A stretch of 64,000 nucleotides of DNA from Cavia porcellus. Lineage: Eukaryota; Chordata; Mammalia; Rodentia; Caviidae. The notes beneath the pieces were generated by a model that was not told the DNA's origin, made no database searches, and saw nothing but the letters and a program-made list of their open reading frames with translations. The stretch is taken from positions 36,486,785 to 36,550,784 of the forward strand of contig NW_026947502.1 of assembly GCF_034190915.1 (NCBI RefSeq), read 5' to 3'. The position numbers and the translations under genes are program-made. How positions within the stretch are numbered: the first letter of the stretch is position 1; every line of letters starts with the position of its first letter. Below are positions 7,111-63,729 of the stretch, piece by piece.

Positions 7111-7235
7111 CTTCAAAACAAGATGGTACTAAATCAGTATTACCTATTAAGATGTCATTTTCTCCAAAATAGCTGTTCCTATCATCCAATCTTCTCTGTC
7201 TCATTTCTGTTGAGCTCTTTTTCTGTCAGTCGCTG

Positions 7236-9035: not shown

Positions 9036-9050
9036 ACATGGATCATTTTC

Positions 9051-16470: not shown

Positions 16471-16546
16471 AGAGCCAGGGGTTTGGCTCAGCAGCACAAA
16501 CACCTGCTTGGCAAGCATGAGGCCATGAGTTTGACCACTGGTACCA

Positions 16547-17892: not shown

Positions 17893-18936
17893 ATGACAAA
17901 ACGAAAGACCAAATTACAATCTCAAACCTCCAGCCCATCCCAAGAAACTTTAGGAGCTATGTACATAGAAGAAAATATATGCCATACACTTGAAATATTG
18001 GACATAATAGTAACTAAAATAAAGAAGCAATTCCAGGAAGCTTCAAAGGAATTCAAACTAGAAACAATCTCCCAGGGAAAAGAAGAAATGATAAAAGAAA
18101 TGAAAGAGATGCTGACCATATCTAAAGAAGACACAGTTAAAAAATTGGAGGGAGTAAACAAAAAGGTAGAATCCCTGGATGAACAATATAAGAAAAAAAC
18201 AGAATACATAAAGGAGATGCAAAGAAATATACAGGAAATCAAAATTCCATTGAAAGTTGTAAAAATCACCTCAATGAAAGTGAAGATAGAATGTCAGACC
18301 TCAACAAGATTTCAGCTAGTAACAGGAAAAGAAAGATATTTTAAAAATAATAAGAAACCAGGAAACAACAATTCAACAGCTGCAAGATGATGCAAAGAAA
18401 AACAACATAAGGTTGATAGGGATAAATGAAAAAGAAGACAACATAAAGGATGTCAAGAGGATATTTAGAGAAGTAATAGCTGAAAATTTCCCAAGCATGA
18501 GATCAGAAACCGACATCAGGATCAGTGAAGCATATAGAACTTCAAATAGCCATAACCAAAATAAAACTACAACCAGACATATAATCATCACCATCCAAGA
18601 AATCCAACATAAGAATAGAATATTAAAAGCTGTCAGAGAGAAAAGACAGATCACCTATAAAGGAAAACTGATCAGAATCACAGCAGACTTCTCAGCATAA
18701 ACAATAAAGTCAAGAAGAGCATGGAGTGAAGTATTTCAGATCCTAAAGGAAAATTATTTGCAACTTAGACTGATGTATCCTGAAAAACTCTCCTTCAAAA
18801 TCGATGGAGAAATAAGATACTTCCATGACAAAAACAGCTGAAGAACTTCATGGTCATCAGTCCAATCCTGCAAAGAATACTGAAAGACATTTTAGATACA
18901 CTTACCAAAAAAACACTAAGCAAAGCAAATAATTAA
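17893..18936 (+). pseudogene. L1-2 ORF1, disrupted
   Basis: ATG at 17893 opens MTKRKTKLQSQTSSPSQETL. 165 codons are open to 18390, with the frame lost in the coiled coil near 18245-18300. The RRM-like and C-terminal parts reappear in 18413-18700 (MIGINEKEDNIKDV; RHIIITIQEIQHKNRILKAV), with a stop at 18697-18699. It ends at the stop 18934-18936, in the same place as L1-1 ORF1. Confidence 0.9.
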
Positions 18937-18955
18937 ACAGAACAGAAAGATAAAG

Positions 18956-21900
18956 ATGCAACAGCAGAAAGATAACGTATCAACAATAAACCAACATATA
19001 ACAGCTATAACCTTTAATGTAAATGGTCTCAATGCACCAATTAAAAGAAACAGACTGGGAGAATGGATCAAGAAACAAAATCCAACCATATGCTGTCTAC
19101 AAGAAACCTATCTAACCCAAAAGGATACTCACAGACTGAAAGTCAAAGGATGGAAAACAATATTTCATGCAAGAGGAACCTCCAAAAAGTGGGGGTACTT
19201 ATTCTGTTTGCAGACAATGTGAACTTCAAACCAATAATGATCAGAAGAGATAAAGAAGGTCATTACATACTGGTTAGGGGAAAACTTCAAGAGGAAGAGA
19301 AATCAATCTTAAATATATATGCACCAATATCCAGAGCTCCCAGTTATATAAAATAAGTATTAACAGAAATGAAAAACCAAAATATAAGTAACACAATTAT
19401 AATTAACACACCATTGACACCAAGGAACAGATCAACCAAACGGAAAATCAGCAAAGAAATAACAGAACTGAATCACACCTGTGAACAAATGGTCTTGATA
19501 GACATATACAGAATGTTCCACCCAACAACATCAGAATACACATTCTTCTCAGCAGTACATAGGACATTCTCTAAAATAGACCATATATTTGCTCACAAAA
19601 TATATTTAAATAAATGCAAAAGAGTTTAAATCAACCCTTACATGTTATTGGATCATAGCACCATGAAATTAGAAATTAATGATAAAACATACTTCAAAAA
19701 TCTCACAAACACATAGAAACTGAGTAACACACTCTTGAGTGATCAGTGGGTCACAGGGGAAATTAAAGAAGAAATTAAACAATATCTACAGGCAAAAGAA
19801 AATACAAATACAACTTACTGGAATCTGTGGGATGCAATGAAAGCTGTCCTCAGAGGATAATTCATTGCACTGAGTTCCCATATCAGGAAAATAAAATAAA
19901 TACAAATAAATAACCTGAGGCTACATCTAGAAAAAGAAGAACAAGTCAAGCCCAAAGCTAAAAGAAGAGAGAAAATTATAAAAATCAGAGCCAAAATCAA
20001 TGCAATAGAGACTAAGAAAACAATCCAAAGAATCAATGAATCAAAGAGTTGGTTCTTTGAAAGAATAAATAAAATCGATAAGCCACTAGCCAACCTTATT
20101 TTTAAAAGGGGAAAAAAAGCTCAAATTCATACAATAAGAAATGAAAAAGGCGAAATCACTACAGACTCTGTAGAAATGCAGAAAATCATCAACATCTATT
20201 TTGAAAAGCTCTATTCTCATAGGTTTGATAACACAGAAGAAATAGATTCCTAGAAACATTTGAAGTACCAAAGCTAGATCAAGAGGATGTAAAACTGCTG
20301 AATAACCCAATTTCCCTTAATGAAACTGAAAATGTAATTAAGTCCTTACTTACAAAAAGATCCCAGGCCCACATGGATTCACTGCAGAATTCTACAAGAA
20401 GTACAAAGAAGGTTTAATGTCGACACTCCTCAAATTCTTCAATGAAACTGAAAGGGAAGCAATCCTTCCTAAGTCATTCCTGGAAGCAAATATTACTCTA
20501 GTACCAAAACCTGAGAAAGACCCAACTAAAAAAGAGAACTACAGACCAATATCCCTAACGAACACAGATGCAAAAATCCTCAATAAAATATTGGCAAATA
20601 GGATGCAGCAAGTCATCACGAACATTATACACCATGACCAAGTGGGATTCATCCCAGGCATACAGGGATGGTTCAACATACGTAAATCAATAAATGTAAT
20701 CCACCATATCAATAAAGCTAAAAGTAAGAATCATATGACCATTTCCATAGATGCAGAAAAAGCTTTTGATAAGGTCCAACATCCATTTATGATAAGAACC
20801 TTACAGAAAATTGGAATAGATGGTCTTTACCTCAGTATAATAAAGGCCATCTATGACAAACCAATAGGCAGTATCATACTAAAATGGCCAAAAATTGAAG
20901 GCCTTTATTTTAAAATCAGGCACAAGACAAGGATATCCCTTATCACCAATCCTATTTAATATAGTACTGGAAAAACTAGCCAGAGCAATTAGACAAGACA
21001 GAAAAATAAAAGGGGAAAAGATAGGAAAAGAAGAAGTTAAATTATCATTATTTGCAGATGACATGATACTCTACATAGAAGACCCCCAAAATTCCATTGA
21101 AAGAGTCTTAGATATAATAAATAAATTTGGCAATGAGCAGGATACAAAATCAATACTCAAAAATCAATAGCATTCCTGTACACTAACAAAATCACTGACA
21201 GAGAAATAAGAGAAACCATAACCTTCACACTAGCAACCAAAAAAATGAAATATTTAGGAATTACTCTCATGAAAGAAGTGAAACACCTATACAGGGAAAA
21301 TTATCATATACTGAGAAAAGAAATTGAAGAGGATCTCAGAAAGTGGAAAGACATCCCTTGCTCATGAATAGGAAGAATAAATACTATGAAAATGACCATT
21401 CTCCCAAAACTGTTATATAGATTCAGTGCAATACCAATAAAAATACCATCAACATACCTCATAAATCTATAGAAATCACTCCTAAAATTCATCTGGAGTA
21501 AGAAGAGACCTAGAATAAATTAGACAGTTCTAAGTAACAAAGGCAAGGCAGGAAGTATCACAATCTCTGACTTGAAATTATACTACAAAGAAACTTAGTA
21601 AAATCAACATGGTACTGGAATCAAAACAGAGCCGAGGATCAATGGAATAGATTAGAAGATACAACCACAACTACAAACACACTCAACCACCTTATCTTTC
21701 ATAAAGGGGCCAAACATGTTCACTGGAAGAAGGACAGACTCTTTAATAAATGGTGTTGGAAAAACTGGCTCTCCATATGCGAAAAACTAAAACTAGACCC
21801 ATGCCTATCACCACGTACTAAATTAAAATCTAAATGGATTAAAGATCTAAATATTAAAACAGAAACAGTAAATCTATTGGAAGACAAATTGGGTAAAAAC

Positions 21901-22726
21901 CTTGAAGACACAGGGGTAGGTAGAGAATTCATGAACAGGACTCAAACCGCACAGAAAATACTTCCCAGAATCAATAACTGGGATCACCTCTTATTAAAAA
22001 GTTTCTGCACGTCAAAAGAAATCTCCAGCATAGTGAAAAGAAAGCCCACAAACTGGGAAAAAATCTTAGTGAACTCTCCCTCAGACAAAGGATTTCTGTT
22101 CAAAACATATAAAGAATTTTAAAAAATCAGACCCCCAAAATTCAAAGATCCAATCCAAAAATGGGCATCTGAGATGAATACGCAATTCTTAGATGAAGAA
22201 ATATGAATGGCAAATAAATACATGAAAAAAATGTTTATCATAATTACTTATTACAGAAATGCAAATTAAAACCACACTGAGATTTCAGAGGATCAAGAAA
22301 ATCACCACCAACAAATGTTAGAGAGGCTGTGGGGAAAAAGGAACTCTCCTACACTGTTGGTGGGAATGTAGACTGGTACAACCATTGTGGTGGTCAGTGT
22401 GGAGATTTCTCAAAAAGCTGGGACTGGAAGTCCCATTTGTTCCAGCTATCCCACTTCTAGGCATATTCCCAGAAGAACTGAAAGCATCATACCACAGTAA
22501 TAAATATGCACCCATGTTTATAGCAGCACAATTTGTAATAGCCAGATCTTGGAAACAACCTAAGTGTCCATCAGCTGAGGAACGGATAAAAAAGTTGTGG
22601 TATTTTTATACAATGGAGTACTACTCAGCTATGAAATATGATCACATTGAGATATTTATAAACAAATTGATGCAGCTTGAGACCATACTCACAAGTGAAA
22701 TAAATCAAAGTCACATGTATGTATAA
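18956..22726 (+). pseudogene. L1-2 ORF2 (endonuclease-reverse transcriptase), many frame breaks
   Basis: The endonuclease starts MQQQKDNVSTINQHITAITF with NVNGLNAPIKR and CCLQETYL. Frame shifts occur near 19195, with stops near 19354 and 19626. The GD.NTP catalytic region is damaged: the stretch before NTPLTPRNRS at 19403 lacks the Gly-Asp. RT blocks are [11 protein letters not shown] and [14 protein letters not shown] in 20417-20959, and LFADDM in 20895-21170 (FADD codons 21051-21062). The C-terminus, 22385-22726, ends EINQSHMYV. Several disabling changes are present. Confidence 0.92.
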
Positions 22727-24146
22727 ATACTGAATAGTTACCCTAGTGTAAGAAATGATAAGAATACATAAAAGTATGTGGTAATCATGATTCCCCATTA
22801 TATGGCTTTGAAGCCTATAACATTTTCATTCATTAATTGCAATGATTTTATTCTGGGCTGTTTGATTTTATTGTCTGTGATGGTATGAACAGCTATTTTG
22901 AAGTAAACCAGACATCATAATAGCTAGTGCTGATTTAATATCCTCTTGTTTTGAAGTCCCATAAAACTTTTGTTCTTCTGTCTCCATCGGTCTTGTCATG
23001 TTGTATCTTATTGGATTTTATTATATGTGATAGTACAAACAAAAATTTTATAGACAAGGATATAATATAGAAACCATTGTTCATTTCCTGTTAGTTGGTT
23101 CTAAATACCCTGTAATACTTTCATTCTCTTGAATAGTTTTACACAGTCTTGATATGTTTGATGCTATAGTATATGAAGTTATACTCAAATATTTCAAAAA
23201 AGAGACACTATTTTAACCACTGTTATGTCGGGTTATCTTGTGGTGAAGCACTATGTTGTTTAAATTGTTCTGTTCTGACCTGTGCTATTGTGTTGTTATG
23301 TCCTCTTTTATCTCACTCTCCCTTTTATTAATTAATTTATTTTTACTTTTTTAATTAAGGGAAAAATAAATTTTAAAAATAGGATATATTATAGTAACCT
23401 TTTTGATTTCCTGTTAACTTGATTTGAAACATTCTATTGCTCTCACCATCTTGTTTTGACTGATTTTACTCTATTCTGTTTTGCTTGATAGTATCAAGTT
23501 TGAGGATATAGGCAACTACTTTGATGACAATAAGATTCACTATGATGCCCACTCTGGTTTGACTATTACCTTCTTTTGAAATCTTGTAATGTCTCCAGTG
23601 TTTTTGTTTTATTTGTTTTTTTCTGTACTGTTTTGTTCAATTTTATTATAACTGATGACATAGGCAATTCTTTTTAAGATAGCAAGAGGCATTATGGTAA
23701 CCATTGTTGATCACCTTGTATTCTGTTTTTGCATCATGTGCTATGTCCAGCCTTTTGATTTGACTGACTCTGTTTTGTTTTGTCACATTTGGTTTTATTC
23801 TCTTCAAAAAAAAGTAATAAGAACTGTGGGGGTAATAAAACCCAAAATGTGTAATTGTTATTCTAAAAAAGAGAGCAAAAGAAAGTGCTCTAAAGGACAT
23901 AACTGCATGTATATTTAAGTGTGTAAGATAGATAACTATATTACTAAGATTTGTTGGATCATTGAACAGATCTGTTTGCAGTCTCACTGTTTGTCCACTT
24001 TGTATGCTTTAATTTTGTAACTTGAACAACTATTTCTAAGATGACAATATGTAATCTATTAACTAGTGATTCTTACTGTTTATTTTTTTTGAAATTCTAT
24101 ATTACTTGAACCCTTTTTCTGTTTTTTTTTCTCTTTAAATAAAATT
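22727..24146 (+). repeat. L1-2 3' UTR: six tandem modules of about 150 bp plus unique tail
   Basis: An anchor of the form 'agtaaCCATTGTTgat' or its variants occurs at 22923, 23074, 23218, 23398, 23548 and 23701, giving spacings of 151, 144, 180, 150 and 153. The 180 step includes an A-rich insert at 23350-23390. Between anchors the same order recurs: TTTCCTGTTA, then TTTTGAAGTCC, then CTGTAATRCTT, then TTTTATT, then GATAGTA, then a TTTGAAGATAACAAGA-like block. A unique tail (23810-24146) carries AACCCAAAATGTGTAATTGT, TAACTGCATGTATATTTAAG and AACTAGTGATT, and ends in CTCTTTAAATAAAATT. Confidence 0.85.
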
Positions 24147-24164
24147 TTTAAAAATATTGTTCAA

Positions 24165-40583: not shown

Positions 40584-40799
40584 TACTGCCATAATTTATT
40601 CATGCCCAGCAACCATTTATATGAAGACCTCAGTGAACACACACACATATACATGTGCATGCACATACATGGATGCATCTAAAGAAATTGAAAATTCAAG
40701 GATAATTTTCAGTTGGATCCAGAAAGATACTAGAAAAACTAGAACAACTCCAAAAGACCTGCAAAGCTCAAAAAATCATCACTATAAGATGATGCCATT

Positions 40800-41568
40800 G
40801 GGGGGGCAGAGCAAAGATGGCAGATAGATAACAGCTGGCTACAGAGGCCCCATGAGATAGTCAACTTAGAATTGAACATCATATAGCATGGGGACCCCGA
40901 ACAGAGGGAGATGAATTCTCTCATCCCAAGAAGAAACTAACGTGAGAAGAACCAATCAAACATATAGTCCTGGTGCTATTATTGGAACAGCTAATTAAAC
41001 AGTGGACTGTTTAATTTTAGTCCACTTTGATTCACTGGAGGCCCAGTCACACTGAGGTCAGGTATCAGCCAGAAAAGAGAGAGCTGAGCTGGCAGGGAGC
41101 CTGCATTGACCTGTGGTGAGTGACGGGATGGAGCCATTCCACAGAAAGGGGGGCTCCAGTGGACGACATTCTAGGACTGGGAGGGACTGGCAAGTACAAG
41201 GGGCAGCAGTGACTTCAGTCAATTGTTCCCTTCCCAAATGAGATTGGTGGAGTGAGCTAGGCCTGGGTCATGTGACCTGGCTGAGCCCCAATAGGTTATC
41301 TGAAATCAATTCCCTACAGTGATGGTGCATAAAAATCACACTAATGCAGTGAAGCCTCAGAAGTTTGACTGATCCGGGGGGAAGTGGTGCACAATAATAC
41401 AGTGCAGGCCTCAGCAGCTTGACTGACTTGGAGGAGAGAGGCCAGTATATGCTGTCTCTGTCTGCAATTCTCTAGCACACGGGCAGTGTGAAGGGTCATC
41501 TAGCCAGCATGCTTCAGAAGAATGGTGAGCAACAAAGAAATTGGGGCCTCCTGGAAGAAACAATAAAG
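40800..41568 (+). promoter_or_regulatory. HAL1-B1 5' UTR
   Basis: It starts GGGGGGCAGAGCAAAGATGG. AAGATGGC at 40814-40821 is a YY1-like core in the same place as in human L1 and in the other half-L1s here. It contains two copies of a 54-55-bp unit with TTTGACTGAT/CTTGACTGAC at 41364 and 41418; HAL1-B2 has four. Promoter role inferred. Confidence 0.72.
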
Positions 41569-42655
41569 ATGGGAAGACGAAGCAACAACAAAAAGTTCCC
41601 AGGATCCAACCCTGAGAACATTGACCCAGGAGAGGTAAATACAAAAGAGAATGAGAACAGCAAACATGCAATATCAAACACAACACCAGTGGACATAAAG
41701 AGATATATTCAGGACCTCATTGGCGACTTCAAAAGTGAAATATTTAGCCAATTAAAGCAAAATATAAGAAGATTAATAAAAGAGATGCTAAGCACCCCTC
41801 AAGCAGACAAAGACAAAAGAAGGGAGAAACTCAAACAAAGGAGAGAACTATTTGATGAAGAATATAGAGAAAATATAGAATACATGAAGTAGATTCAAAG
41901 ACATTACCAGGAAATTAAAGCTCTAAGGAAAGATAGCAAATCTGCTTGAAAGAAACTAAGGATAAATTATCCAAGCTGGAGGATAGTTTTGAAATTTGGG
42001 ATTATGAAAGGAAAAACTTTTTAAAAATAACAAGGAAACAAGCAGTAACAATACAAAGGCTAGAAGATGACAAGAGGATCTATAACTTGAGAAGAAAGAA
42101 TGTGAATGAGGAAGCAGGGGTACAAACAAAGGAACTACAAAAGCTATTCACAGAAATAATTAAGGAAAACTTCCTAAACATAGGAAAAAGAAATGATATT
42201 CAGATGTATGAGGCATACAGATCTCTAGCCACCTACCACCAAAACAGAGCCGCACCCAGGCATATAATAATCACAATCCCAGAAATTCAATATAAGAACA
42301 GAATATTAAAAGCTGTTAGAGACAAGAAACAGATAACCTATAAAGGAAAGCCCATCAGAATAATGGCAGACTTCTTGACAAAAACCATCAACTCAAGAAG
42401 AGCCTGGAGTGAAATATTCCAAGTCCTGAAAGAAAATAACCTCCAACCCAGATTGACATACCCTGGTAAACTGTCTCTAGAAATTAATGGAGAAACAAGA
42501 TGCTTCCAAGACAAAAAAGAATTTGGGAAATTCACAACCACCAATCCAGTTCTACAGAAAATTTGGGAAATTCACAACCACCAATCCAGTTCTGCATTCT
42601 CTAGAATGCAGAGCATTCTAGAGAGAGAGAGAGAAAAGTACTAGGATTCCAGGAA
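41569..42655 (+). pseudogene. HAL1-B1 ORF1, disrupted
   Basis: The aligned start is the ATG at 41569 (MGRRSNNKKFPGSNPENIDP); an upstream in-frame ATG at 41488 is in the UTR. A stop occurs at 41889-41891 (after RENIEYMK), with a frame change before the next open stretch 41946-42644. That stretch holds LKEN and coiled-coil residues (MKETKDKLSKLEDSFEIW), the RRM-like part (IYNLRRKNVNEEAGVQTKEL) and the C-terminal domain (RHIIITIPEIQYKNRILK). A 40-bp tandem duplication at 42521-42600 and a small hairpin-like rearrangement disturb the C-terminus. Confidence 0.9.
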
Positions 42656-42764
42656 CAGTGGCAGAGAGGCCTCAATGAATGGAGCAGAAAACAGAATGAA
42701 GAAGATAAGCAGACAACTGATGGCAAAAAAGAGCATAACAGAAATGAGGCAGAGAAGGTTGGCA

Positions 42765-43070
42765 ATAATCTCTAATATAGATGGCCTTGATACGCTAAAT
42801 TAAAAAAAGAACCACACGGGGAGTAGATCAGGAGGCAAGGTCCACTGAGATGCTATTTATAGGAAATATAATTAACATGAAAAAGAGTACATGGACTGAA
42901 AATCAAATATGAGAAAACAATGCTCTATGTGAGAGGGAACCAGAGAGTAATAGGGGCAACTAGACCAGTATTTGTGGATAGGTTGGAAAGACAGGCTTTA
43001 ACAGGTAAAGGAATACAATTAGAAATCAAGTCCAGAAAAGAGAAGGTTCAGAACCACTTGGGTAAATAGG
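42765..43070 (+). pseudogene. Relic of ORF2 endonuclease start in HAL1-B1
   Basis: The plus strand reads AATATAGATGGCCTTGATACGC where L1 ORF2 has NVNGLNAP. It is followed by recognisable counterparts of EWIKKQNP (GTAGATCAGGAGGCAAGGTCC), of KVKGWKTI (AAATCAAATATGAGAAAACAATGC) and of KKAGVAILFAD. There are stops throughout. This shows the half-L1 arose by loss of most of ORF2 while a 5' stump of about 300 bp stayed. HAL1-B2 and both HAL1-A copies lack it. Confidence 0.75.
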
Positions 43071-43289
43071 AGGTTGCCCCCTACCAGCACCAATTTAAAA
43101 CCAAGTGTCTTGGTCAGACCCAAAAATTCTCAGTGTACGCTGGGGAAGTGAAAGGGGAGGGAGAGTCTTAAAAAAGAAGGCAGAAGATATTGTTAATAGT
43201 GTATCAGGAATTAAAACCCACATTACTTGCACCACTCTACTTAGATAGATTATATTCTGTCCCAGTAGGTCTATTTGCATTAGATTTGA

Positions 43290-44680
43290 GGGTACAGACA
43301 GCTATCCCAAAAACATCACAGTAATCATCTTTAATTTCCTATTAACTTAATCTGGAGCCCTGTATGATTTATACTGTTTTGTCATGCCTGATTTTAGTTA
43401 AATCTGGTTTGTTTGATTGCTGTTTGGTATTGACAGATTTTTTTCAAAACTGATATGATTGATAGTATCAAGTCTGAGAGTATAGGCAATTACATTGAAG
43501 ATGACAAGACTCACTACAATTCACATTCTGGTTTGATTACTGCCTGCTTTTGAAGTTTTATACTATATACAAAGTTGTGTTTTTATTAATACTGTTATGT
43601 ACTGATATATTCAATTATACTATGTCTAATGATATAGCCAATTCTATTTAAGATAAGAGACAATACAGGAACTATGGTAGAACTCCTTGTACAACAGGCT
43701 TATATGTCTTTTTCGTTTCATGTGTTTATAGGAATATGTTTTGTTTTGTCTTGCTTTGTTTTGTTTCTCCCTCTAATATAGAAAGGATAGACATACATGT
43801 TTAGACTCATGCATGAGCAGAATCTATAAACAGTTTATGAGAACTGATCTTATGACACATGATGAAATGAACAGATACTTTGAAGAAAAAGAGACACTAA
43901 AGTACCCAGTGCTGATCTTGGAGTGTCATAATGTGAAACCCAGCAATAGTACTATTCTTTGTTCAGAGTGATATTAGCCTACTTGAGTTTGTTCAATCTC
44001 AACATAATTGAAGAGATGGATAACTGCATGCATATTTAAGTGTATAGGATTGATAACCATATTTCTAAGTTTTTGTTGGATAGTTGAATAGAACTGGTTG
44101 CAGTCTCACTGTTCGGATCCCCACTTTTTATGCTCCATTTTAGTATCTTGAATAACTATGTGTAAGAGGACAATCTGCACTCAACTAGTGATTTCTTACT
44201 GTTTACTTTTTATTTGAAAGTATTTATTATTTCTACCCATTTTACATTTTATTTAGTCTTTCTTTAAATAAATTTTTTTTTAAAAAAGACACTACAGTAC
44301 CCAGTACTGATCCTCGAGTGTCATGATGTGAATTCCAGCAATACTATTATTCTTTGTTCAGAATAACTTTAGCCTGGTTTAGTTTGTTCATTCTCAACAT
44401 AAATGAAGATATGGATAACTGCATGTGTGTTTAAGTATATAAGATTGACAACCATATTACTAAGTTTTTGTTGGGTAGTTGAACAGAACTGTTTGCAGTC
44501 TCGCTGTTTGAATTCCCACTTTATGTGTTCCACTTTTGTATCTTGAGCAACTATTTGTAAAAGGACAGTATGTAAACATTAACTAGTGATTTCTTACTGT
44601 TTACTTCTTCTCTGAACATATGTATTATTTCTACCTATTTTCTGTTTTGTTTAGTCTTTCTTTAAATAAAATTTTTTTAA
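43290..44680 (+). repeat. HAL1-B1 3' UTR; last 395 bp duplicated in tandem
   Basis: Modules 4-6 are visible (TTTCCTATTAACTTAATCTGG near 43333; TTCACATTCTGGTTTGATTAC near 43520; GATAAGAGACAATACAGG near 43656). AGACACTAAAGTACCCAGTGC at 43892 and AGACACTACAGTACCCAGTAC at 44287 begin two tail units, each ending in TCTTTAAATAAA plus an A/T-rich run. They are alike throughout but diverged. Confidence 0.83.
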
Positions 44681-44694
44681 AAGATGACATCATT

Positions 44695-45049
44695 CTTTGA
44701 AAAATAAAGTCTGGTTTCTCCCCAAATTTGCTGTCCTTACAAAGTTTGTCCTTCTGAAAAGAACGGCCCAATTTTCAAATTTGTCATGCCAAAACCTGGA
44801 TTTTTTTTTCTTATCCTACATTCCTTCCATTAGCAAGTCTGAGTGCTTTAACTTCAAATAACCATAACTTGACTCAGAATGTCCCTGCCCTGGTCATCTC
44901 CCAATCTTCACTCCCCACCCAGTCTGCACTCAAGACAATGACTTGAGTAATTCTTTTAAAGTGTAAAACATACCATCTGTCACATTTTTGAGGCTTCCAA
45001 AGATTTCCTTCTCACCATTTAAACCCAAACCTAGCATGATCTAAAAGAA
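44695..45049. other. Unassigned DNA
   Basis: Nothing firm. The later part may belong to the adjoining L2-like fossil. Confidence 0.4.
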
Positions 45050-45366
45050 CCTGTTTGTTCTCCCCCTGCAACCACACCAGCCTCGTGACTAGTCCTCCGG
45101 CGCACCAGTTACACAATCAGCTCAGGGCCTCTTCCCAGAGCATTCTGTCATGGTCTGCCTCTGTATCTCCTTCTAGTCTCTCATAGAATGTGAGTAAGGA
45201 TTCCCCCAGCACCCCATCCACCTCTGACATGCCACCCTCCTTACTGTCCTCTTACTGTCACTTGACATTTACTTATTTGTTTAGACATTTTGATATCTCC
45301 CCCCAAATCACTCACCATAGAATATAAACTCCATGAGGACAGGAAACTTGCCTGTTTTGTTCCTTG
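45050..45366 (+). mobile_element. L2-like LINE fossil, 3' end
   Basis: Pyrimidine-rich coding-like sequence followed by CACCATAGAATATAAACTCC, then ATGAGGACAGGAAACTTGCCTG and TTGTTCCTTGGTATTG. This is the typical L2 ending ('tagaatgtaagctccatgagggcagg' type). The left limit is uncertain. Confidence 0.6.
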
Positions 45367-45368
45367 GT

Positions 45369-46121
45369 ATTGTAATTTAGGTAAGAAATGTCCTTCAGGA
45401 CTCATGTGTTGAAGGCTTCATATCCAGTGCAGCAGTGTTCAGAGGTGATTGGATTATGAGGGTTCTAATCTCATCAGTGGATTACTCCATTGATAGATTC
45501 ACAACTGAAAAGATTTTTCAGGTTGGTAGAAACTGTTCAAAGTGAGGCTTGGTTAGAGGAAATAGGTCTGTGAGGTTATGGCCTGAGAGACTATGTCTTG
45601 TCCCTGAAATCTTTCTGTCTCATTCTCATTCTTGTTCTCTTTCTCTTTCTCGTTCTTTCTCTCTTTCAATCCCTCTCTCTCCCCTTTTCCTCTCCTCCCT
45701 ATTTTCCTCTCTCCCTTGCTTTTTCTCCATCTTTTTTTCTTTCATCTTTTTTACTCTCCTTTTCTTTCTCCTCCTCTTCCTTCTTCTGGTTTCTTCCCCT
45801 GCTTTTTCCTTTCTTCTGCTTCATCTCTTTCTTTTCCTCCTCTTTCTCCTTTTCTCCATTGCTCCCTGTATCTCTCTTTCTTTTTCTCCCCTGTCACCAT
45901 CCATGTGTCTGTTTGCCGTCTGTCTGCCTGCCTTCCATGAGGTGAACAATTTTCTTCAGCTTCCCCTTTCATCATGATGTTTCTGCCTCATTGTAGGCTT
46001 AAAAGAAATGCAGCCAGCTGGCCATGGACTGAATCCTCTGAAACTTGAGCCAAAATAAACCTTTTCTCCTGTAAATTGATTTTCTCTGATTTGTCATTGT
46101 GACCTAAAGCTGATTAACACA
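45369..46121 (+). mobile_element. MaLR-type LTR (MST-like) with expanded pyrimidine tract
   Basis: ACTCATGTGTTGAAGGCTTCA near the start and GGTGATTGGATTATGAGGG appear first. After the tract come TTCCATGAGGTGAACAATTTTC, TTCTGCCTCATTGTAGGC, GCCATGGACTGAATCC and GAGCCAAAATAAACCTTTTC, ending with CTGATTAACACA. This is the exact block order of MST/THE1-group MaLR LTRs. The CCAAAATAAACC block holds the LTR polyadenylation signal. No internal region adjoins. Confidence 0.88.
45600..45895 (+). repeat. Pyrimidine tract (TTTCTC/TCC-rich) inside the LTR
   Basis: About 300 bp of almost pure C/T, with TCTTTCTC-like units early and TTCCTCC-like units later. MaLR LTRs normally carry only a short CTCTCTCT stretch here, so this is a local expansion. 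The open frames across it are artefacts of composition. Confidence 0.9.
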
Positions 46122-46129
46122 AATGGAGC

Positions 46130-46650
46130 TTTGAAAAAGACTAATGTTATGGTTTTATCCTGGTTTCTTTGATTTTATTATCTGTGATGGTACAAACAGC
46201 TATTATGCAGAAAACAAGACATTATAATAGCCAGTGCTGATTTAATATCATCTTACTCTGAAGTCCTACCATGCTTTTGTTCTTCTGTTTCCATTGGTTC
46301 TATCATGTTGTAGCTTAATGAATTTTGTTATGTGTGATAGTATAAACAAAATTTCTATGAAAAATGAGATAATATAGTAGCCATTGTTGGTTTTCTGTTA
46401 TTTGGTTCTGAATGCCCTGTAATACTTTAATTCTCTTGAATGGTTTTATACTATTTTGTTATGTTTGATACTATTGTATATGAAGTTATACTCAACTATT
46501 TCAAAGAAAGAGACATTATGGTAGTTACAGTTAATTATAAGTTGTCTTGTAAAATAATGTGTTGCTTACATTGTTCTGTTCTGATCTGCTTTGTTATGTC
46601 CTCTTTTGTCTTAATCTCTTTAAAATAAAAAAAATTTAAAAGACATGTAA
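46130..46650 (+). mobile_element. Detached 3'-UTR fragment: first three modules only
   Basis: Collinear with 22850-23330 of L1-2. Anchors TAGCCAGTGCTGATTTAATA (46230) and GCCATTGTTGG (46380) are about 150 bp apart, with a third near 46525. It stops where the full UTR has its internal A-rich stretch and ends CTTTAAAATAAAAAAAATTT. This suggests an RNA cleaved at the internal signal. AAAAGACTAATGT before and AAAAGACATGT after may be a decayed TSD. Confidence 0.7.
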
Positions 46651-46870
46651 ATATTTCTAGAAGAGAAGGTGAAGTGAGACCATTTGTAATGGCTCAGTTA
46701 AGACGTGAATATGAAGCAGGAAGGAAACCTTGGATGCCTTCATTGGCTCAAAAGCCTCTCTGCTGCATCTCTAGCACAGGGTCACTGGACCTCTGCTGGA
46801 AACTCTACCCAGAGACACCGAACACATCCACCAGCACTGTGAGGAAGGGGTTTGTTGACAGGGATAAAAA
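46651..46870. other. Unassigned DNA
   Basis: Nothing recognised. Confidence 0.4.
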
Positions 46871-47434
46871 CTTAAACATAGCCTTCCTATTAGCCAGCAG
46901 AAGCCATGTGGACTGGGAGGAGAATCAAGAAGCCAACCCACGCTTTCTTGTGAGCCAGCCAGTGGCATAGGCTTTGGAGACAAGAAGAGCAACACCTTCT
47001 GCCCCTACCTCTGGTAAGCAACTGACTGATTGAGAGGAACTCAGGCTGAGGTGATAGCAACTGAAGTAAAAAAATTAACAGTGCTTGTATTGTTTGATTG
47101 ACTGCAGGACTAACGCTGATAGTCTGAGCATCTATTTGGAGGATAACAACATGCATTATAGCAACTGTGGGGGATTTCCTTTAGTTTTGAAATCCAATGT
47201 TTTGTCCTGTTTTTTGTTTTATTTTATTCCTGGATCTAGTAACCTGACAAAATATTTTGAAGATAACAATATGCAATATAACTATCACTGTTAAAGTCCT
47301 ACCATCATGTTTTAAAAAACTTATATCACTATTTTTGTTGTTGTTGTTGTCATTTTGCTTTTGTTGTTGTCATTTTTTGTTTGTTTGTTTCTTGTTTTTT
47401 CTCTTTAAAATTAAAAAAAAGCTTACACACAGGC
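46871..47434 (+). mobile_element. Short composite element: leader plus two UTR modules plus A-rich end
   Basis: The leader (46884-47060) shares landmarks with 2490-2715. From 47080 two module copies follow: TTTGGAGGATAACAACATGC at 47133 and TTTTGAAGATAACAATATGC at 47254, then AAAGTCCTACC. The end is a T/G-rich stretch, then CTCTTTAAAATTAAAAAAAA. CTTAAACATAGCC (46871-46883) and CTTACACACAGGC (47422-47434) are a possible decayed TSD, 10 of 13 identical. There is no ORF. Confidence 0.6.
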
Positions 47435-49139
47435 TAATACACAGGCTGAATTACTCCAATTTGCAAAATAAGAAACTGAACCTTGTGAAAGGTGACATGG
47501 CATTACAAAGTAAGCAGTAAAATGAGCACTATACCATATTTCTCAGCCCCGTCTAATGTAAAAGAGGAGGTTAGTAAGAATCCATGTATTATATCAATTA
47601 ATCCAAATAACTAAATAAAGTCATCCAATACTAGTCAAAGGTCTTTTGCAAAGTCATCTACTGACACCATCTCCCTTCTGTGAATCCAAATGCAGACAGT
47701 ACTGAAAGTAGCAAGTAGGAGCTATTGACAGGTGTCTCCACCCTCCTGGCTCTGTTCACAGTTGGGGCTAAGCAATCTAATTTAGTCCACCAAACACTGC
47801 TCCTGGGAAGGAAATAATAAGGGGAGTTCAGTTGACAAGCCCCCATATCATGTCCTCCCCTGAGATCCAGCCTCTTGGAGCAAGGACTGTGGGCCCTGAA
47901 AGAATGGAATCCTTAGGGACTTTCTAAATAGCAGAGAAGGCTGAGGGACCTGCAAGCAGAAAAGTTTACTCAAGAAAGAGGAAAAATATTTTTGTAGAAA
48001 TGGTGCCTAATAATAATGACCCTGGCCAGTGAGAAATAATAGATATAAAGCTTCCTGAAAAGCCCTACTATAAACTTGGGAACTACTTGTCAGTCCAAAC
48101 CAGAAGACCCAGTTTCTCATCCAGGTCTAAATTCTATTGCGCCTCTGTTGGAGTAGTGAGGAGTGGAGGTAGGGAGCAGATTAAACCAGTGGTTCTCCTG
48201 AGGTGCCCAGAAAGATCCCATAAAGGTGGCTTAATCACTGTCTTCTGTCTTTGAAAGAGTTAAACAAAAGCCACGCATTTATTGCCAGTATATAAGGCTT
48301 ACATGATAAACTCAAATCAACTACTTTGATGGGAATTTTATGTTTATAGTTAACCACTTACAGTTTACGTCAAAGCATCACTCTGTCTGCACATTTGTTT
48401 GCATATTCACTATCCCAAGTATCACGGGGTTAGGTATCATTTCAATAGGTCAATTCTTGCATTGAACAACTTTGCTAAACTTGTCATTTTTATATTTCCT
48501 GCTAAAGTATCTTTAAAAATTATCAAAAATATTCAATTTTTGGTCATCTTGTAATTAAATAATTGGACTGGTAAGTGGTTAAATAAATGAAAATGTACAG
48601 TAACTATGTCATAATAGAGAAATCTTTATTAAAAAAAGTTTGGGGATTAGGAAGGAACCTTGGTGGTCAGGCTGGAAACCACAAGACTTTATAATCTGCT
48701 TGGTTCCTACCAGCTTTACAGTCTAGATGTTCTGTACTATTACAACTACATGAGAAGCATTCACCTGAGATGCCATAAAAAGATCAAATTCCTTTGTATC
48801 TGGGGTAGACTTCAGCAGTTCTATGTTCAGGGTACAGCAGCATCACAGGGCCATCTGTGTGAAGTCACTCTCACATGGATTAGTGTAGATAACATGTAAC
48901 CAAGTGGGAAAAGCAGAGACCAAGGGTCATGAAGCTTATGCTCTGGTGAAGAATATATGTTAAACCCTGGAAATGCTTGGCCTCTATTTTCTGAGAGATA
49001 AAACAAGGATCACTACAGATAATATTTAATGTCCTTTGTAACTTCTAAATCTTGTAGCTCCAGAGATTAAAAGAAGGTCATTTGGACTTATCCTCAGTTT
49101 CCTCAAGAAAAAACCCAAGCATTTACAAAAGCATCTATG
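47435..49139. other. Mostly unassigned DNA, with a possible MIR core
   Basis: 47445-47530 (CCAATTTGCAAAATAAGAAACTG; GTGAAAGGTGACATGGCATT) has the order of the MIR core ('ttttacagatgaggaaactga', 'aaggtcacacagc') but is strongly decayed. The rest shows no repeat or exon that I recognise. The frame 48660-48899 has no domain. Confidence 0.4.
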
Positions 49140-49253
49140 TCATAAAAGATCTCCAGAGACACTGAACAAAAAGGAGGTAAATAGGATGGATAGAGATAGA
49201 TGATTTCGATAGATATAAAGATAGATAAGGAATTCATAGAAATTTGTCTCACA
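49140..49253 (+). mobile_element. ERVL-type LTR, left part (split by HAL1-B2)
   Basis: ATCTCCAGAGACACTGAAC, then a GATAGATA-like simple stretch (49180-49228), then GGAATTCATAGAAATTTGTCTC. This is the usual start of an ERVL-type LTR group ('ttctccagagaaacagaac', GATA repeat, 'ggaattggctcaca'). It continues at 52232. The GATA run is normal for the family. Confidence 0.65.
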
Positions 49254-50232
49254 GAGAGTGGAGCAAAGATGGTGGATACATAACAACTGGCTACAGAGGC
49301 TCCCTGAGATAGTCAACTTAGAGTTCAACATAATACAGGATGGGGAGCCCCAAACAGAGGGAGATGAATTTTCTTGTCCCAAGAAGAAATTAAGGTAAGA
49401 AGAACCAACCAAACATACAGTCCCAGTGTTATTATTGGAACAGCTAAAGGTTCAGTGTTCCTGCCACGACGGGCAACTTACCAACCATCTGAGGTCCTGC
49501 CGTGACTTGCTGAAATCCCACTGCTGCTTGCCGAGGTTCCACCATGATTTGTCGAGCCATCCAAGGTCCTGGCACTTCAACTCACTAGAGGTGCAGTTAC
49601 ATTGAGTTCGGGGGTCAGCGAGCCAAATGGAGAACTGAGTTGGCAGGGTGCCTACATCAACCTGTGGTGAGTGACGGGAGTGGAGCCATTTCATAGAAAG
49701 GGGAGCTCTGGCAGATGATATTCTGGGACCAGACAGGACTGGCAAGTACAAGGGGCATCAGTGACTTCAATCAGTTGTTCCCTTCACGAATGGGATTGGT
49801 GGAGTGAGCTAGGCCATGGTTATGTGATCTGGCTGAGACCCAATATGTTATCCGAAATTAGTTCCCTACAGTGATGACACATATTAACCACAACAACCCA
49901 GGGAAGCCTCAGAAGTTTGACTGACCCAAAGGAGAGGCAGTGCAAAGTAATATCATGCAGGCCACAGCAGTTTGACTGACCTAGAGGGGAGGTAGCACTA
50001 AGTAATACAATGCAGGCCACAGCAGCTTGACTGACCCAGAAGGGAGGCAGCACATAGAAATACAGTGCAGGCCACAGCGACTTGACTGGTCCGGCTGGGA
50101 GGAACCAGCATACACTGCCTCTGTCTGCACTCATTAGCACATGACAGTCAGAAGTGTCGTCTAGCCAGTGGGCTTCATAAGAATTGTAACCAACAAAGAA
50201 AGGAACAGGAGCCTCCTGAAAGAAACAAAAAA
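49254..50232 (+). promoter_or_regulatory. HAL1-B2 5' UTR with four 55-bp monomers
   Basis: It starts GAGAGTGGAGCAAAGATGGTGG; AAGATGGT (49266-49273) is the YY1-like core with one change. The motif TTTGACTGAC/CTTGACTGAC occurs at 49916, 49971, 50026 and 50081, exactly 55 bp apart each time. Each is followed by GGGAGGYAGCAC-like and ATRCAGGCCACAGC-like parts. HAL1-B1 has two units. Confidence 0.82.
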
Positions 50233-51255
50233 GACAGGAAGACGAAGCAGCAACAAAAAGTCCCCAGGTCCCAACCCTGAGAACAATGACCCAGGACAGG
50301 TAAATACAAATGAGAATGAGAACAGCAAACATGCAATATCAGACACTGTGCCAGCGGACATAAAGAGATATATTCGGGACCTCATAGACGAGTTCAAGAG
50401 GGAAATATTTAGCTAAATAAAGCAAGATATAGGAAGATTAATAAAAGAGATGCTAAGCACCCTCAAGCAGACACAAACAGAAGGGAGGAACTCAAACAAA
50501 GGAGAGAGCCATTTGATGAAGAATATTAAAAATATACAGTACAGGAAGCAGATTCAAAGAGATCACCAGGAAATTAAAAACTATATGGAAAGATGGCAAA
50601 TCTGCTTGAAAGAAACTAAGGATAGATTATCCAAGCTGGAGGACAATTTTACCATGTGCGAGTATGAAAGGGAAAACTTTTAAAAAATAACAAGGAAACA
50701 AGCAGTAACAATACAAAGGCTAGAAGATGACAAGTGCATCTATAACTAGAGAATAAAGAATGTGAATGAAAAAGTAGGGGTATAAACAAAGGAACTACAA
50801 AGGCTATTCACAGAAATAATTAAGGAAAATGTCCCAAACATAGGAAAAGGAAATGATATTCTGATATATGAAGCATACAGAACTCCAGCCACCTACAACC
50901 AAAAGAGAGCCACACCCAGGCATATAATAATAAAGATCCCAGAAATTCAATATAAGAACAGAATATTAAAAGCTGTTAGAGACAAGAAACAGATAACCTA
51001 TAAAGGAAGGCCCATCAGAGTAACAGCAGACTTCTTGACACAAACCATCAACTCAAGAAGAGCCTGTAGTGAAATATTCCAACTCCTGAAAGAAAATAAC
51101 CTCCAACCCAGATTGATATACCTTGATAAACTGTCTCTAGAAATTAATGGAGAAACCAGATGAAGAGGAACTTGGCAAATTTGCAATCACCAATCCAATT
51201 CTACAGAGAATAGTGCTGGACATTCTAGAGAGAGACAAAAGTACTAGAATTCCAG
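50233..51255 (+). pseudogene. HAL1-B2 ORF1, start codon lost and frame broken
   Basis: The aligned start reads AAGACAGGAAGACGAAGC where HAL1-B1 has AAGATGGGAAGACGAAGC, so ATG has become ACA. The first part (RRSSNKKSPGPNPENNDPGQ) is open to a stop at 50414-50416. More stops and shifts follow (about 50685, 50745, 50785). The C-terminal block RHIIIKIPEIQYKNRIL is readable at 50917-50975. Confidence 0.88.
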
Positions 51256-51354
51256 GAACAGTGGCAGAGAAGCATCAATAAATGGAGCAGAAAACAGAAT
51301 AAAGAAGATAACTGATGGCAAAAAAAGAGCATAACAGAAATGAGGCTGAGAAGA

Positions 51355-52215
51355 TTTTATTCGAAACTGATATGATTGATATTATCAATTCTGAGAGTAT
51401 AGTCAACTGCACTGAAGATGACAAGATTCTACAATACACATTCTGGTTTGATACCTCCCAGTTTTTGAAATTCTAGACTATATACAAAGTTGTTTGTTTA
51501 TTAATACTGTTATGTACTGATATATTCAATTATACTATGTCTGATGATATAGCCAGTTCCACTGGAGATAACAAGAGACAACACAAGAACCATGGTAGAA
51601 CTCTTTGTACAATGGTCTTATATGTTTTTTCATTTCATGTGTTTATAGGAATATGTTTTGTTTTGTCTTGCTTTGTTTTGTTTCTCCCTCTAATATAGAA
51701 AGGATAGACATGCATGTTAAGACTCATGCATGTGCAGAATCTATAAACAGTTTAGAGAACTGATCTTATGATACATGATGAAGTAAACAGATACTTCGAA
51801 GAAAAAGAGACACTAAAGTACCCAGTGCTGATCTTGGAGTGTCATAATGTGAAACCCAGCAATAGTACTATTGTTTGTTCAGAGTGATATTAGCCTGCTT
51901 GGGTTTGTTCAATCTCAACGTAATTGAAGAGATGGATAACTGCATGTATGTTTAAGTGTATAGGATTAATAACCACATTTCTAAGTTTTTGTTGGATAGT
52001 TGAACAGAACTGGTTTGCAATCTCACTGTTTGAATCCCCACTTTATATGCTCCACTTAAGTATCTTGTATAACTATGTTTAAGAAGACAATCTGTAATCA
52101 TCAACTAGTGATTTGTTACTGTTTATTTTTTCTTTGAAATTATGTATTATTTCTACCCATTTTCTGTTTTGTTTAGTCTTTCTTTAAACAAAAAAATTTT
52201 TAAAAAAAGAAGAAA
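51355..52215 (+). repeat. HAL1-B2 3' UTR, shortened
   Basis: It begins inside the module region (TTTTATTCGAAACTGATATG, equal to 43437 onward in HAL1-B1). It holds two modules and then the tail with AACTGCATGTATGTTTAAG and CAACTAGTGATTTG, ending TCTTTCTTTAAACAAAAAAA. The usual AATAAA reads AAACAAA here. Confidence 0.85.
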
Positions 52216-52231
52216 AGAAATTTGTCTCACA

Positions 52232-61303: not shown

Positions 61304-61379
61304 CCTTTTAAAACATTTTTTTTACTTTCAAAGGCAGTAAAACCAAGTGAAATAAAACAGAAAAGATTCAATTAAATCA

Positions 61380-61990
61380 AAACAATGAACATGATGCAGG
61401 ACTTCAAAAAGACATCAAATGAAATCAATAATGGCTACAATAATGCCACTTGCTATCTTCAAAATAACTGCCCATACCATCAAACAAAATAAAATCAAAA
61501 CAGAACAGAATAAAACCTATCAACACAAAATAATGAAGCAATACAGGACTTCAAAGCAAGATAATAGAAAAACAACAATGGCTACCATAATTTCTCTTGT
61601 TATCTTCAAAGTAGTTGCCTGTACTATCAGACATAACAAAATCAAACAAAACAAAATAGAATAAAGCCAACCAAAACAAAACAATGAAAGTAATACAGGG
61701 GTTGGAAACAAGATAATAGGAAATCAATAATGGCTACTATAATATATTTTGTTATCTTTGAAATAGCTTCTTCCCATGTCATCAAATATAATAAAATCAA
61801 ACAAAACAAAATAGAATAAAACCAGAACAATGAAAACAATACAGGATTTAAAAACATGATAATAGATTAACAATGGCCAGTGCCTTTCCTTTTTAGAGAT
61901 TTCTTTCCCTTTAACTTTCACAATATCTATTGTACATTTTGGAACCACTATCTCCTTTAGTTTTTATATCAGGGAAACAATGCGATCTTC
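61380..61990 (-). repeat. L1-5 3' UTR: old-type start followed by tandem modules
   Basis: On the plus strand ATGGCTAC or ATGGCC recurs at 61431, 61578, 61730 and 61873 (147, 152 and 143 bp apart), each with neighbouring TATCTTCAAA and ATCAAACAAAATAAAATC-type blocks. Just before the modules (61900-61990) the first part of the older L1 3' UTR is present (CACAATATCTATTGTACA, also seen at 1257-1274). Confidence 0.83.
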
Positions 61991-62149
61991 ACCCATGTGA
62001 CTCTGAACCATTTCACCTACTGCATCCCATTTATCTATAGGAGGCTTAAGGTTATATTTTTGGCTAAGAAGCTTTCCATTGTATAAAAATGCCATCTCTT
62101 TCTTATCCATTCTGCAGTTGACAGCAAGCTATCCCTACTTTTTTCTGGT

Positions 62150-62290
62150 TGCCTGTCACATTGAGCATTGTTTTCTCTCCTTTGACTTTCAGTCTATGAA
62201 TTTTTTTTCTGACTCCTGATCCATTCTACTGTGTTTCTTTTTATTGATGAATTGAGGCTGTCTATATTAATGGTTATGGCCAGCATGCAC
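62150..62290 (-). pseudogene. L1-5 ORF2 stump (endonuclease start)
   Basis: The minus strand reads AACCATTAATATAGACAGCC, then CTCAATTCATCAATAAAAAG, the counterpart of TINVNGLNAPIKR, and later ACTGAAAGTCAAAGGAG for LKVKGW. It then breaks to the ORF2 C-terminus (TTTTTATACAATGGAAAGC, about 62083). Confidence 0.72.
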
Positions 62291-62419
62291 TGGCTTGTCT
62301 CTACCATGCTATTTTCCTACCATTGGCTGCTTATTTGTCCCCTCTAATCAATTGTCTGTCCCACTTGGTGATCCCTCTCTGACACTATTCCTGGAACCAT
62401 GACCACTTTTATCTCTCTC

Positions 62420-63330
62420 TAGAATGTCCTTTAGTATTCTTTGCAGGGTTGGTTTGATGGTTGTGAATTTCTTCAGTTACTCTTTGTTATGGAAGTATCT
62501 TGTTTGTCCATTAATTTTGAAAGAAAAGTTTTGCAGGTTACATCAATCTGGTTTGGAAGTTGTTTTATTTCAGGACTTGCAATACTTCACTCCAATTTCT
62601 TGACTTGATGGTTTGTGTTGTGTTGAGAAGTCTGTCATGATTCTGATGGGATTTTCCTTTTTAAGTAATCTGTTTCTTTTCTCTAACAGCTTTTAATATT
62701 CTGTTCTTTTGCCAAATTTCTAGGCTCTTGATTATTATATGTCTGAGTATGGATTTCTTTTGGTTATGGCTAGCTGGAGTTTTATATGCCTCGTTTATCT
62801 GTATGTCAGGTCCTTTTCCCATATTTGGGGAGTTTTCTACTATTATTTCTGTAAATAGACTTTTTATGTCTCTTGTGTTAACCCCTGCTTTTTTGCTGAC
62901 GCCTGTTATTCTTAAATTATCTTTTTTTTGCATCATGTTGAAGCTGTTGAATTGTTATTTCCTGGTTCATTATTACTTTTGAGAGATCTTTCCTTTCACA
63001 ATCGCTAGCTGCAAACTTGTCTTCAAGGTCTGAAAGTCTATTTTCAGTTTCTTTCAAGTGGTTTTGCCAACTTTCAAGAGTTTTTAATTTCCTGGATATC
63101 TCTGAATCTGTTTCATGCATTTAAATCTTTCTTATATTGTTTATTCAAGGTTTCCCTCATTTCCCTATGCTCCTCTATTTTTATACATGTCTTCTTTAGA
63201 GATGCTTAGCAATTCTTTTATTGTTTTTCATTTCTTCTTTTACCTGAGATTGTATTTCTATTCTAATTTCTTTTATAGCCTCATGAAGTTGTTGCTTTCT
63301 TCAGTTGCTATCACTTCAGAAACTTCAGAT
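62420..63330 (-). pseudogene. L1-5 ORF1, decayed
   Basis: The coiled-coil part 63120-62917 (ESWQNHLKETENRLSDLEDK) is followed by 62936-62661 (DNLRITGVSKKAGVNTRDIK; RHIIIKSLEIWQKNRILKAV). These are the RRM-like and C-terminal blocks of L1 ORF1. The N-terminal region up to about 63330 is broken into short frames. Older than the ORF1s of L1-1, L1-2 and HAL1-A1. Confidence 0.85.
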
Positions 63331-63729
63331 GTGTGACTCCCAAACTCTTCCATGCTTACATCTCCTAGACCTTCTTTGTATGGGTTGGAGGCGAGAGAGT
63401 GCCTTTTTTCCTTCTTCGTCTTTACATTTTCCTGCACTCTTCTGGACAAGTAGGTAGTGAGGTCCTAGGCACTTCTCATGTTGACAAATAGTTCTCCAAA
63501 GTGTGACTGCTTGGTTCTCCTGGCCAGTGCTGGCTAAGGGTATCTGATGGTGGCCACTGGGTGTGCTGGTGCAGGGCTGGCAGCTGCTTTTCCCAGCCCC
63601 CATTTGCTACCAGTGGCAGAAAGCGTCCCTCATGGCAGCTCCTGTGAGCATGGGGGCAGGGGTGGCTGCTGCCTCCTGGACCAAGCTGGTTACCAGTAGG
63701 AAGTGATCTTGAAGGCAGTCAGTATGTCT
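63331..63729 (-). promoter_or_regulatory. L1-5 5' UTR remnant
   Basis: GC-richer, non-coding stretch upstream of ORF1 on the minus strand, with CAGCAGCCACCCCTGCCCCC-type and CCAGTGGCCACCATCAG-type parts. No tandem monomers seen. The short open frames here are not called. Confidence 0.5.

Follow-up and report, generated by a model that had tools for sequence, protein, structure and literature searches.

Known half-L1 elements and the locus under study

On the basis of general L1 biology, a half-L1 (HAL1) element, which derives from L1 and has only its first open reading frame (ORF1), would provide ORF1 protein (ORF1p) in cis and borrow the ORF2 protein (ORF2p) of L1 in trans. Such elements constitute a natural experiment on the question why ORF1p is retained by an element whose ORF2p is borrowed in trans, and here we analyse two of them, HAL1-B1 and HAL1-B2, together with the related elements present in the same stretch of 64,000 nucleotides of DNA (the window, by which we mean the whole of this stretch). 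The closest described systems are HAL1-1E_Cpo, HAL1-1G_Cpo, HAL1-1H_Cpo and HAL1-3D_Cpo of the guinea pig, which are likewise L1-derived, possess ORF1 only and are tabulated as several families beside L1-1C_Cpo and L1-1D_Cpo, with counts of little-diverged copies (table in PMC3183009). In its lines on these elements PMC3627910, citing Bao and Jurka 2010, reports that guinea pig HAL1s have retained ORF1p coding for about 29-44 Myr and infers ORF1p function in cis with L1 ORF2p in trans. Human HAL1 and HAL1B, which we liken by description to our elements as ORF1-only derivatives of L1, are named in the part of PMC5753468 stating that HAL1s arose independently several times.

In comparison with these systems, our reading of the locus, to which we give a probability of roughly 0.8, is that HAL1-B1 and HAL1-B2 are dead copies from one branch of a long-lived half-L1 lineage in a probable caviomorph (guinea-pig-like) rodent, a lineage having ORF1 only, presumably copied in trans by L1 ORF2p, and suggested by its remnants to have lost ORF2 in one deletion. 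The other branch is represented by two copies called HAL1-A1 and HAL1-A2, and the L1 elements compared are L1-1 and L1-2. The coexistence of HAL1 families in the guinea pig is already in print, and the present finding is real and largely expected; what our results suggest to be new is a further element, X, with its ORF2 remnants around a deletion, and the alignment of HAL1-B1 with it. The equation of HAL1-A and HAL1-B with HAL1-1 and HAL1-3 of the guinea pig is a guess made from descriptions rather than from comparison with Repbase sequences. Among the top-ranked literature matches there was no report of a founding deletion, of splicing or of 3' untranslated region (UTR) exchange in HAL1s, all of which the primary paper on guinea pig HAL1 may cover. 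The window was read by self-comparison, lists of ORFs and direct inspection of its letters, by which the complex of L1 family elements was resolved; the sample for all comparisons consists of the copies within the window plus public proteins.

Structure of HAL1-B1 and HAL1-B2

The features of the two elements are the following.

40786..40799, + strand: likely 5' target-site duplication of HAL1-B1, identical at 11/14 positions to its partner at 44681-44694
40800..44680, + strand: HAL1-B1, its second tandem 3' tail (about 44282-44680) included
40800..41568, + strand: 5' UTR of HAL1-B1
41569..42644, + strand: frame-broken ORF1 of HAL1-B1, with RRM-like and dsRBD-like domains in the second half
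42758..43436, + strand: 679 nt of HAL1-B1 absent from HAL1-B2, starting with GT and ending with AG
42802..42976, + strand: remnant of the ORF2 5' end in HAL1-B1, found by tblastn to L1-1 (E 2e-8) plus alignment
42911..43182, + strand: stretch of HAL1-B1 aligning with X across the junction of X's ORF2 deletion
43437..44287, + strand: 3' UTR of HAL1-B1, with modules of the M2 and M3 types (described below) plus other sequence
49238..49253, + strand: 5' target-site duplication of HAL1-B2, identical at 16/16 positions to its partner at 52216-52231
49254..52215, + strand: HAL1-B2
50234..51281, + strand: broken ORF1 of HAL1-B2, with ACA where the start codon should be
51354..52215, + strand: 3' UTR of HAL1-B2

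Both elements begin with the common 5' UTR start GCAAAGATGG, continue with a broken ORF1 in which the Pfam domains PF02994 and PF17490 (L1 ORF1 RRM-like and dsRBD-like) exceed the cut-off, and end with a 3' UTR of common type. Their identity is 81% in the 5' UTR (trimmed alignment) and 90% in ORF1, in agreement with a preliminary description of this DNA, which had attributed to them a common 5' UTR and ORF1 N-terminus and whose limits take in element plus duplication. HAL1-B2 passes from ORF1 to the 3' UTR in about 70 nt, ORF2 being missing, and the extra stretch of HAL1-B1 holds ORF2 remnants only. The same absence of ORF2 between ORF1 and 3' UTR applies to the other half-L1s: HAL1-A1, HAL1-A2 and HAL1-B2 have the two parts joined directly, HAL1-B1 and X have short remnants recognized by alignment. 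Insertion of L1 type is indicated by the target-site duplications of HAL1-A2 (15/15), HAL1-B2 (16/16) and HAL1-B1 (11/14); that of HAL1-B1 must be counted as weak and as a point against us, since the aligner scored a 10-nt piece there, and aligning the flanks of HAL1-A1 and X gave no convincing duplication for either. The intervening region, 44695-49237, lies outside both HAL1-B elements and contains a separate L1-type 3' UTR fragment (46145-46620). HAL1-B1 also shows tandem 3' tails, 43887-44291 and 44282-44689, which are 84% alike and lie inside an apparent single insertion.

How did HAL1-B2 lose the 679 nt (HAL1-B1 42758-43436) that contain the ORF2 remnants of HAL1-B1? RNA splicing of a B1-like transcript would make it comparable to the spliced integrated retrotransposed L1 elements (SpIREs), presented in the portion of PMC5860796 considered here as retrotransposed copies without a stretch bounded by splice sites. 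The absent stretch is indeed bounded by GT...AG and its donor is fair, 13 of the 174 GT sites in HAL1-B1 scoring equal or better with a weight matrix, but a 2-nt repeat at the HAL1-B2 junction allows three equivalent placements, so that GT-AG would arise by chance in about 3 in 256 cases (our own estimate, with equal base frequencies), and the tract before the acceptor is unremarkable, the tracts at 67 of the 341 AG sites of HAL1-B1 being at least as pyrimidine-rich. The case, for which the evidence is weak, also differs from SpIREs in that HAL1-B2 lacks the part of a HAL1 where ORF2 remnants lie. On balance, HAL1-B2 is possibly a spliced copy, a plain deletion being equally likely or more so.

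ORF1 separates the half-L1s from L1

The comparison of ORF1 involves also the following elements.

2729..3499, + strand: 5' part of HAL1-A1, with the 5' UTR and the first ORF1 codons
3500..13932, + strand: L1-1, inside HAL1-A1 and itself interrupted, with the duplication AAGAAAGGCTCCTCGG at 3484-3499 and 13933-13948
5890..9035, - strand: HAL1-A2, inside ORF2 of L1-1, with the duplication GAAAATGATCCATGT at 5875-5889 and 9036-9050
11701..12176, + strand: insertion of a HAL1-A-type 3' tail in L1-1, with tandem tail
13933..16308, + strand: 3' part of HAL1-A1, with the remaining ORF1 and the 3' UTR, split off by the insertion of L1-1
17567..24154, + strand: L1-2, whose 3' UTR (about 22870-24154) is the nearest to that of HAL1-A1
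61336..63440, - strand: element X, with ORF1, remnants of the 5' and 3' ends of ORF2 that meet at about 62122, and 3' UTR

The preliminary description had counted four half-L1s; all four are present, HAL1-A1 as a copy split by L1-1 (2729-3499 plus 13933-16308), and outside the four as identified here X constitutes a fifth ORF2-less element. The N-termini of ORF1 are MGRRSNNKKFPGSNPEN in HAL1-B1, GRRSSNKKSPGPNPEN in HAL1-B2 and MGKGSNKKGSSAPNPEK in both HAL1-A1 and HAL1-A2, versus MTKRKTKLQPQTSSPSQ in L1-1, and the N-terminus of the Cavia porcellus protein P0001, MGKGSNKKGSSVRNPENTDAGKVNAKENEDRKHAIS, bridges HAL1-A and HAL1-B. In an unrooted tree of 25 ORF1 proteins, seven from the window and 18 hand-picked out of 224 listed (320 columns, model Q.mammal+F+G4, supports given as Shimodaira-Hasegawa-like approximate likelihood ratio/ultrafast bootstrap, SH-aLRT/UFBoot), HAL1-A1, HAL1-A2, HAL1-B1 and HAL1-B2 form a clade with the five outside proteins P0001-P0005, three of which are from Cavia porcellus, with support of 100/100, and L1-1 and L1-2 cluster with P0007 and P0008. 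The mean difference in ORF1 is 24% between HAL1-A and HAL1-B and 40% between HAL1-A and L1, the former being smaller in 1000/1000 bootstraps. Consistently, the approximately unbiased (AU) test rejects the placement of either HAL1-A (p-AU 8e-6) or HAL1-B (p-AU 2e-5) with the L1-1/L1-2 clade; the p-AU of 9e-63 which the same run returned for the maximum likelihood tree is an artefact, this tree having the topology of tree 5 and a log-likelihood difference of 0.0005. The preliminary description is therefore upheld in its central points, namely that the ORF1 N-terminus of HAL1-B resembles that of HAL1-A and not that of L1, and that a separate ORF1-only lineage exists with at least two branches, while the trees that would refute it, with HAL1-A and HAL1-B each nested within L1, are rejected as tested versus the L1s of the window. 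Element X falls on the HAL1 side with moderate support (90.6/88); its membership is weakened by the AU test, in which its placement with the L1-1/L1-2 clade narrowly stays within the 95% set (p-AU 0.052, versus 0.948 with the HAL1s).

Outside ORF1, the 5' UTRs of HAL1-A and HAL1-B are alignable at 53-58% identity (trimmed, without chance control) and have similar beginnings, and the stretch right after ORF1 (about 84 nt in HAL1-A1) is common to both. These likenesses, together with the AU rejections from the L1 clade seen here, oppose the alternative that HAL1-A and HAL1-B arose by separate losses of ORF2 in different L1 subfamilies, an alternative suggested by the repeated origin of HAL1s in mammals (PMC5753468, in the part mentioned above), by the joins of ORF1 to the 3' UTR, which differ among HAL1-A, HAL1-B1 and HAL1-B2, and by the consideration that the direct L1 parents may be outside the sample, for the rest of the genome could hold an L1 whose ORF1 is of the HAL1 type. 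We regard separate losses as unlikely, and continue with a single half-L1 lineage.

In this lineage, ORF1 is under purifying selection between HAL1-A and HAL1-B, that is to say it was kept after the loss of ORF2. When a HAL1-A copy is paired with a HAL1-B copy, the ratio of nonsynonymous to synonymous substitution rates (dN/dS) is 0.35-0.48, the bootstrap limits lying under 1 in 4/4 pairs, versus 0.75-1.07 in wrong-frame controls; between HAL1-A1 and HAL1-A2 it is 0.40 (0.30-0.56), versus 0.80-0.85 in the wrong frames. The pair HAL1-B1 and HAL1-B2 speaks on the other side, for its dN/dS of 0.85 (0.61-1.24) is not below 1 and the wrong frames give 0.61 and 0.81, so that no constraint is seen between these two copies.

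Among the matches listed (120 of 289), the closest to the ORF1 piece of HAL1-A1 are the Cavia porcellus proteins P0001 (90%) and P0002 (89%), which make a guinea-pig-like caviomorph the probable host. HAL1-type ORF1 is contained in the Cavia porcellus gene models P0001, P0002 and P0005, whose names come from ZNHIT3, JAZF1 and a B3GNTL1-like gene: either host exons receive the ORF1 of a HAL1 by splicing, or these models are in error.

Order of insertion and coexistence with L1

The nesting of the elements establishes an order, HAL1-A1, then L1-1, then HAL1-A2, with a clear duplication at each of the two nested insertions. Because L1-1 lies within HAL1-A1 and HAL1-A2 within L1-1, HAL1-A insertions occurred both before and after that of L1-1, which is direct evidence that HAL1-A and L1 coexisted. 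The evidence from nested insertions regards HAL1-A only; hence the notion that the half-L1 lineage was kept alongside its L1 partner holds for HAL1-A and lacks such a tie for HAL1-B, which has no nesting and is connected in time to the others only by similar pairwise divergence of ORF1 (10% for HAL1-B1/HAL1-B2, 9% for HAL1-A1/HAL1-A2 and 11% for L1-1/L1-2).

Two minor features of L1-1 may be added. Its 5' UTR contains tandem monomer-like repeats (3501-3634 and 3761-3894) that are 84% alike, and the tandem tails inserted in it (11701-11820 and 12057-12176) are 98% alike inside an apparent single insertion. Tandem 3' tails look as if reverse transcription had proceeded over two tails, or as if the tail had been duplicated at insertion.

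Modules of the 3' UTR and probable exchange with L1

The 3' UTR of L1-2 and HAL1-A is divisible into three modules (M1, M2 and M3), the first of which is found also alone with its own A-rich end (22870-24154; 46145-46620). Such modular 3' UTRs look as though grown by the addition of tails.

HAL1-A1 differs from L1-2 by 7% in M3, 13% in M2 and 16% in M1 (84-93% identity), versus 40% in ORF1 (60% identity), a disparity that points to exchange; the 3' UTR of HAL1-A2 differs from that of L1-2 by 18-20% (80-82% identity). HAL1-B is more divergent, with identities to L1-2 of 67-70% in M2 and 79.5-81.0% in M3, and with no match of at least 100 nt to M1 in the self-comparison of the window. HAL1-A and HAL1-B differ by 34% in M2 and 26% in M3, HAL1-A and L1 by 21% and 19%, respectively; the distance between HAL1-A and HAL1-B is the smaller in 0/1000 bootstraps for M2 and 3/1000 for M3, an order reversed relative to ORF1. 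Unlinking the branch lengths of ORF1 from those of M2 plus M3, the only modules taken into this test, gains 158.6 log units for 8 extra parameters. The join of HAL1-A lies just past GAGAAGGTTGG (HAL1-A1 15016), about 84 nt 3' of the ORF1 stop, and there HAL1-B-like sequence turns L1-2-like (L1-2 about 22879).

Two observations temper the case for exchange. In M3, the identity of 81.7% between HAL1-A2 and L1-2 is barely above the range of HAL1-B with L1-2 given above. Moreover, unrooted module trees of three pairs cannot reveal topological incongruence, and with X (for M2) and fragment F58 (for M3) added as outgroup the AU test leaves HAL1 monophyly unrejected, at p-AU 0.21 for M2 and 0.07 for M3. 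Since the topology tests are not significant, the mixing with L1s rests on distances and branch lengths; of the two patterns that separate trees had been expected to yield, with window copies and public proteins, grouping of the half-L1s by ORF1 is recovered and mixing by 3' UTR is seen in these two measures only. The non-significant tests for M2 and M3 would also suit a slow evolution of the 3' UTR as the cause of the likeness between HAL1-A and L1-2, but L1-1 and L1-2 are 19-25% apart in their 3' UTR modules versus 11% in ORF1, so that the 3' UTR is not slow, and the distances of HAL1-A to L1 are below those to HAL1-B in the 3' UTR and above them in ORF1; we therefore consider this explanation, already disfavoured, very improbable.

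From these sequence comparisons we conclude that HAL1-A probably has an L1-2-type 3' UTR through exchange, most clearly in HAL1-A1, and that HAL1-B has a more divergent homologue, in which M1 was not detected. Thus the idea that all four half-L1s share the 3' UTR of the L1s fits HAL1-A, chiefly HAL1-A1, and has to be relaxed to homology for HAL1-B. The resulting structure recalls the LINE-1 chimeras formed by template switching or RNA ligation, as outlined in the section of PMC13174262 that concerns us, in which a foreign 5' part stands on an L1 3' end; differently from them, HAL1-A would have the RNA of a HAL1 as partner, and at least two copies of the product exist.

Element X and a possible founding loss of ORF2

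Element X retains both ends of ORF2 around a deletion of ~3.36 kb. In a two-part alignment the junction of X falls at 19206/22571 of L1-2 and, correspondingly, at 5515/12567 of L1-1; against L1-1 and L1-2 together the score is 120, versus 107 for the next place. Since this deletion is not bounded by GT-AG, splicing was rejected as its cause. Tandem units of roughly 140-150 nt make up the 3' UTR of X (61336-61877).

The alignment of HAL1-B1 with X spans the junction of X with a score of 32, the maximum of 300 mononucleotide shuffles being 21, and against L1-2 alone the junction of HAL1-B1 falls within 5 nt of X's place, versus another place against L1-1 alone. Several results count against a common deletion. 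The part of HAL1-B1 to the right of the junction scores 18 with X, which equals the maximum of 500 shuffles (mean 11.4, standard deviation 1.6), and 11.0 with the ORF2 3' end of L1-2, which is chance level (shuffle mean 11.8); alignment to L1-1 and L1-2 together leaves the deletion unplaced, with a score of 101 elsewhere and 98 at X's place. Because the alignments of HAL1-B1 to the L1s disagree on the junction, we limit the claim to its alignment with X: it is plausible, though not proven, that X and HAL1-B1 share one founding deletion, mostly via X as a bridge. If so, the founding event would be preserved in fossil form in X and HAL1-B1. Moreover, the link of the half-L1s to L1 is not confined to the 3' end, as the preliminary description had it, since HAL1-B1 and X also keep ORF2 remnants. 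That we are dealing throughout with isolated L1 copies that suffered internal deletions rather than with a propagating family, as could be thought from the broken state of every copy examined and from X, which could be one deleted L1, is hardly credible in view of two pairs of similarly built copies at separate sites, the ORF1 constraint between HAL1-A1 and HAL1-A2 and the Cavia proteins of the same type.

For the long-lived half-L1 lineage, we envisage that HAL1 RNA would be made from its own 5' UTR and translated to ORF1p, which would coat this RNA, and that L1 ORF2p would then copy it in trans through target-primed reverse transcription. A single deletion of about 3.36 kb inside ORF2 may have started the lineage, as X and HAL1-B1 suggest; HAL1-A may have lost its ORF2 remnants in the join to an L1-2-type 3' UTR, by template switch or recombination, and HAL1-B2 by deletion or splice. 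In its widest form the proposal is that a single ORF2 deletion founded the caviomorph ORF1-only lineage comprising X, HAL1-B and HAL1-A, which persisted long beside L1 by replacing its 3' end from the current L1 (HAL1-A with L1-2) and by shedding ORF2 remnants, once through splicing; this we put forward tentatively, at somewhat less than even odds. The window offers a nested insertion order, a possible fossil of ORF2 loss and a mosaic of ORF1 and 3' UTR, and it makes two questions testable on a whole caviomorph genome: Did the half-L1s have one origin or several, and is their 3' end renewed from the L1 that serves them?

Other repeats in the window

One repeat resembling short interspersed elements (SINE-like) has copies at 88-197, 16475-16582, 16894-16995, 17150-17264 and 26071-26168; it looks tRNA-derived and may resemble the ID elements of rodents.

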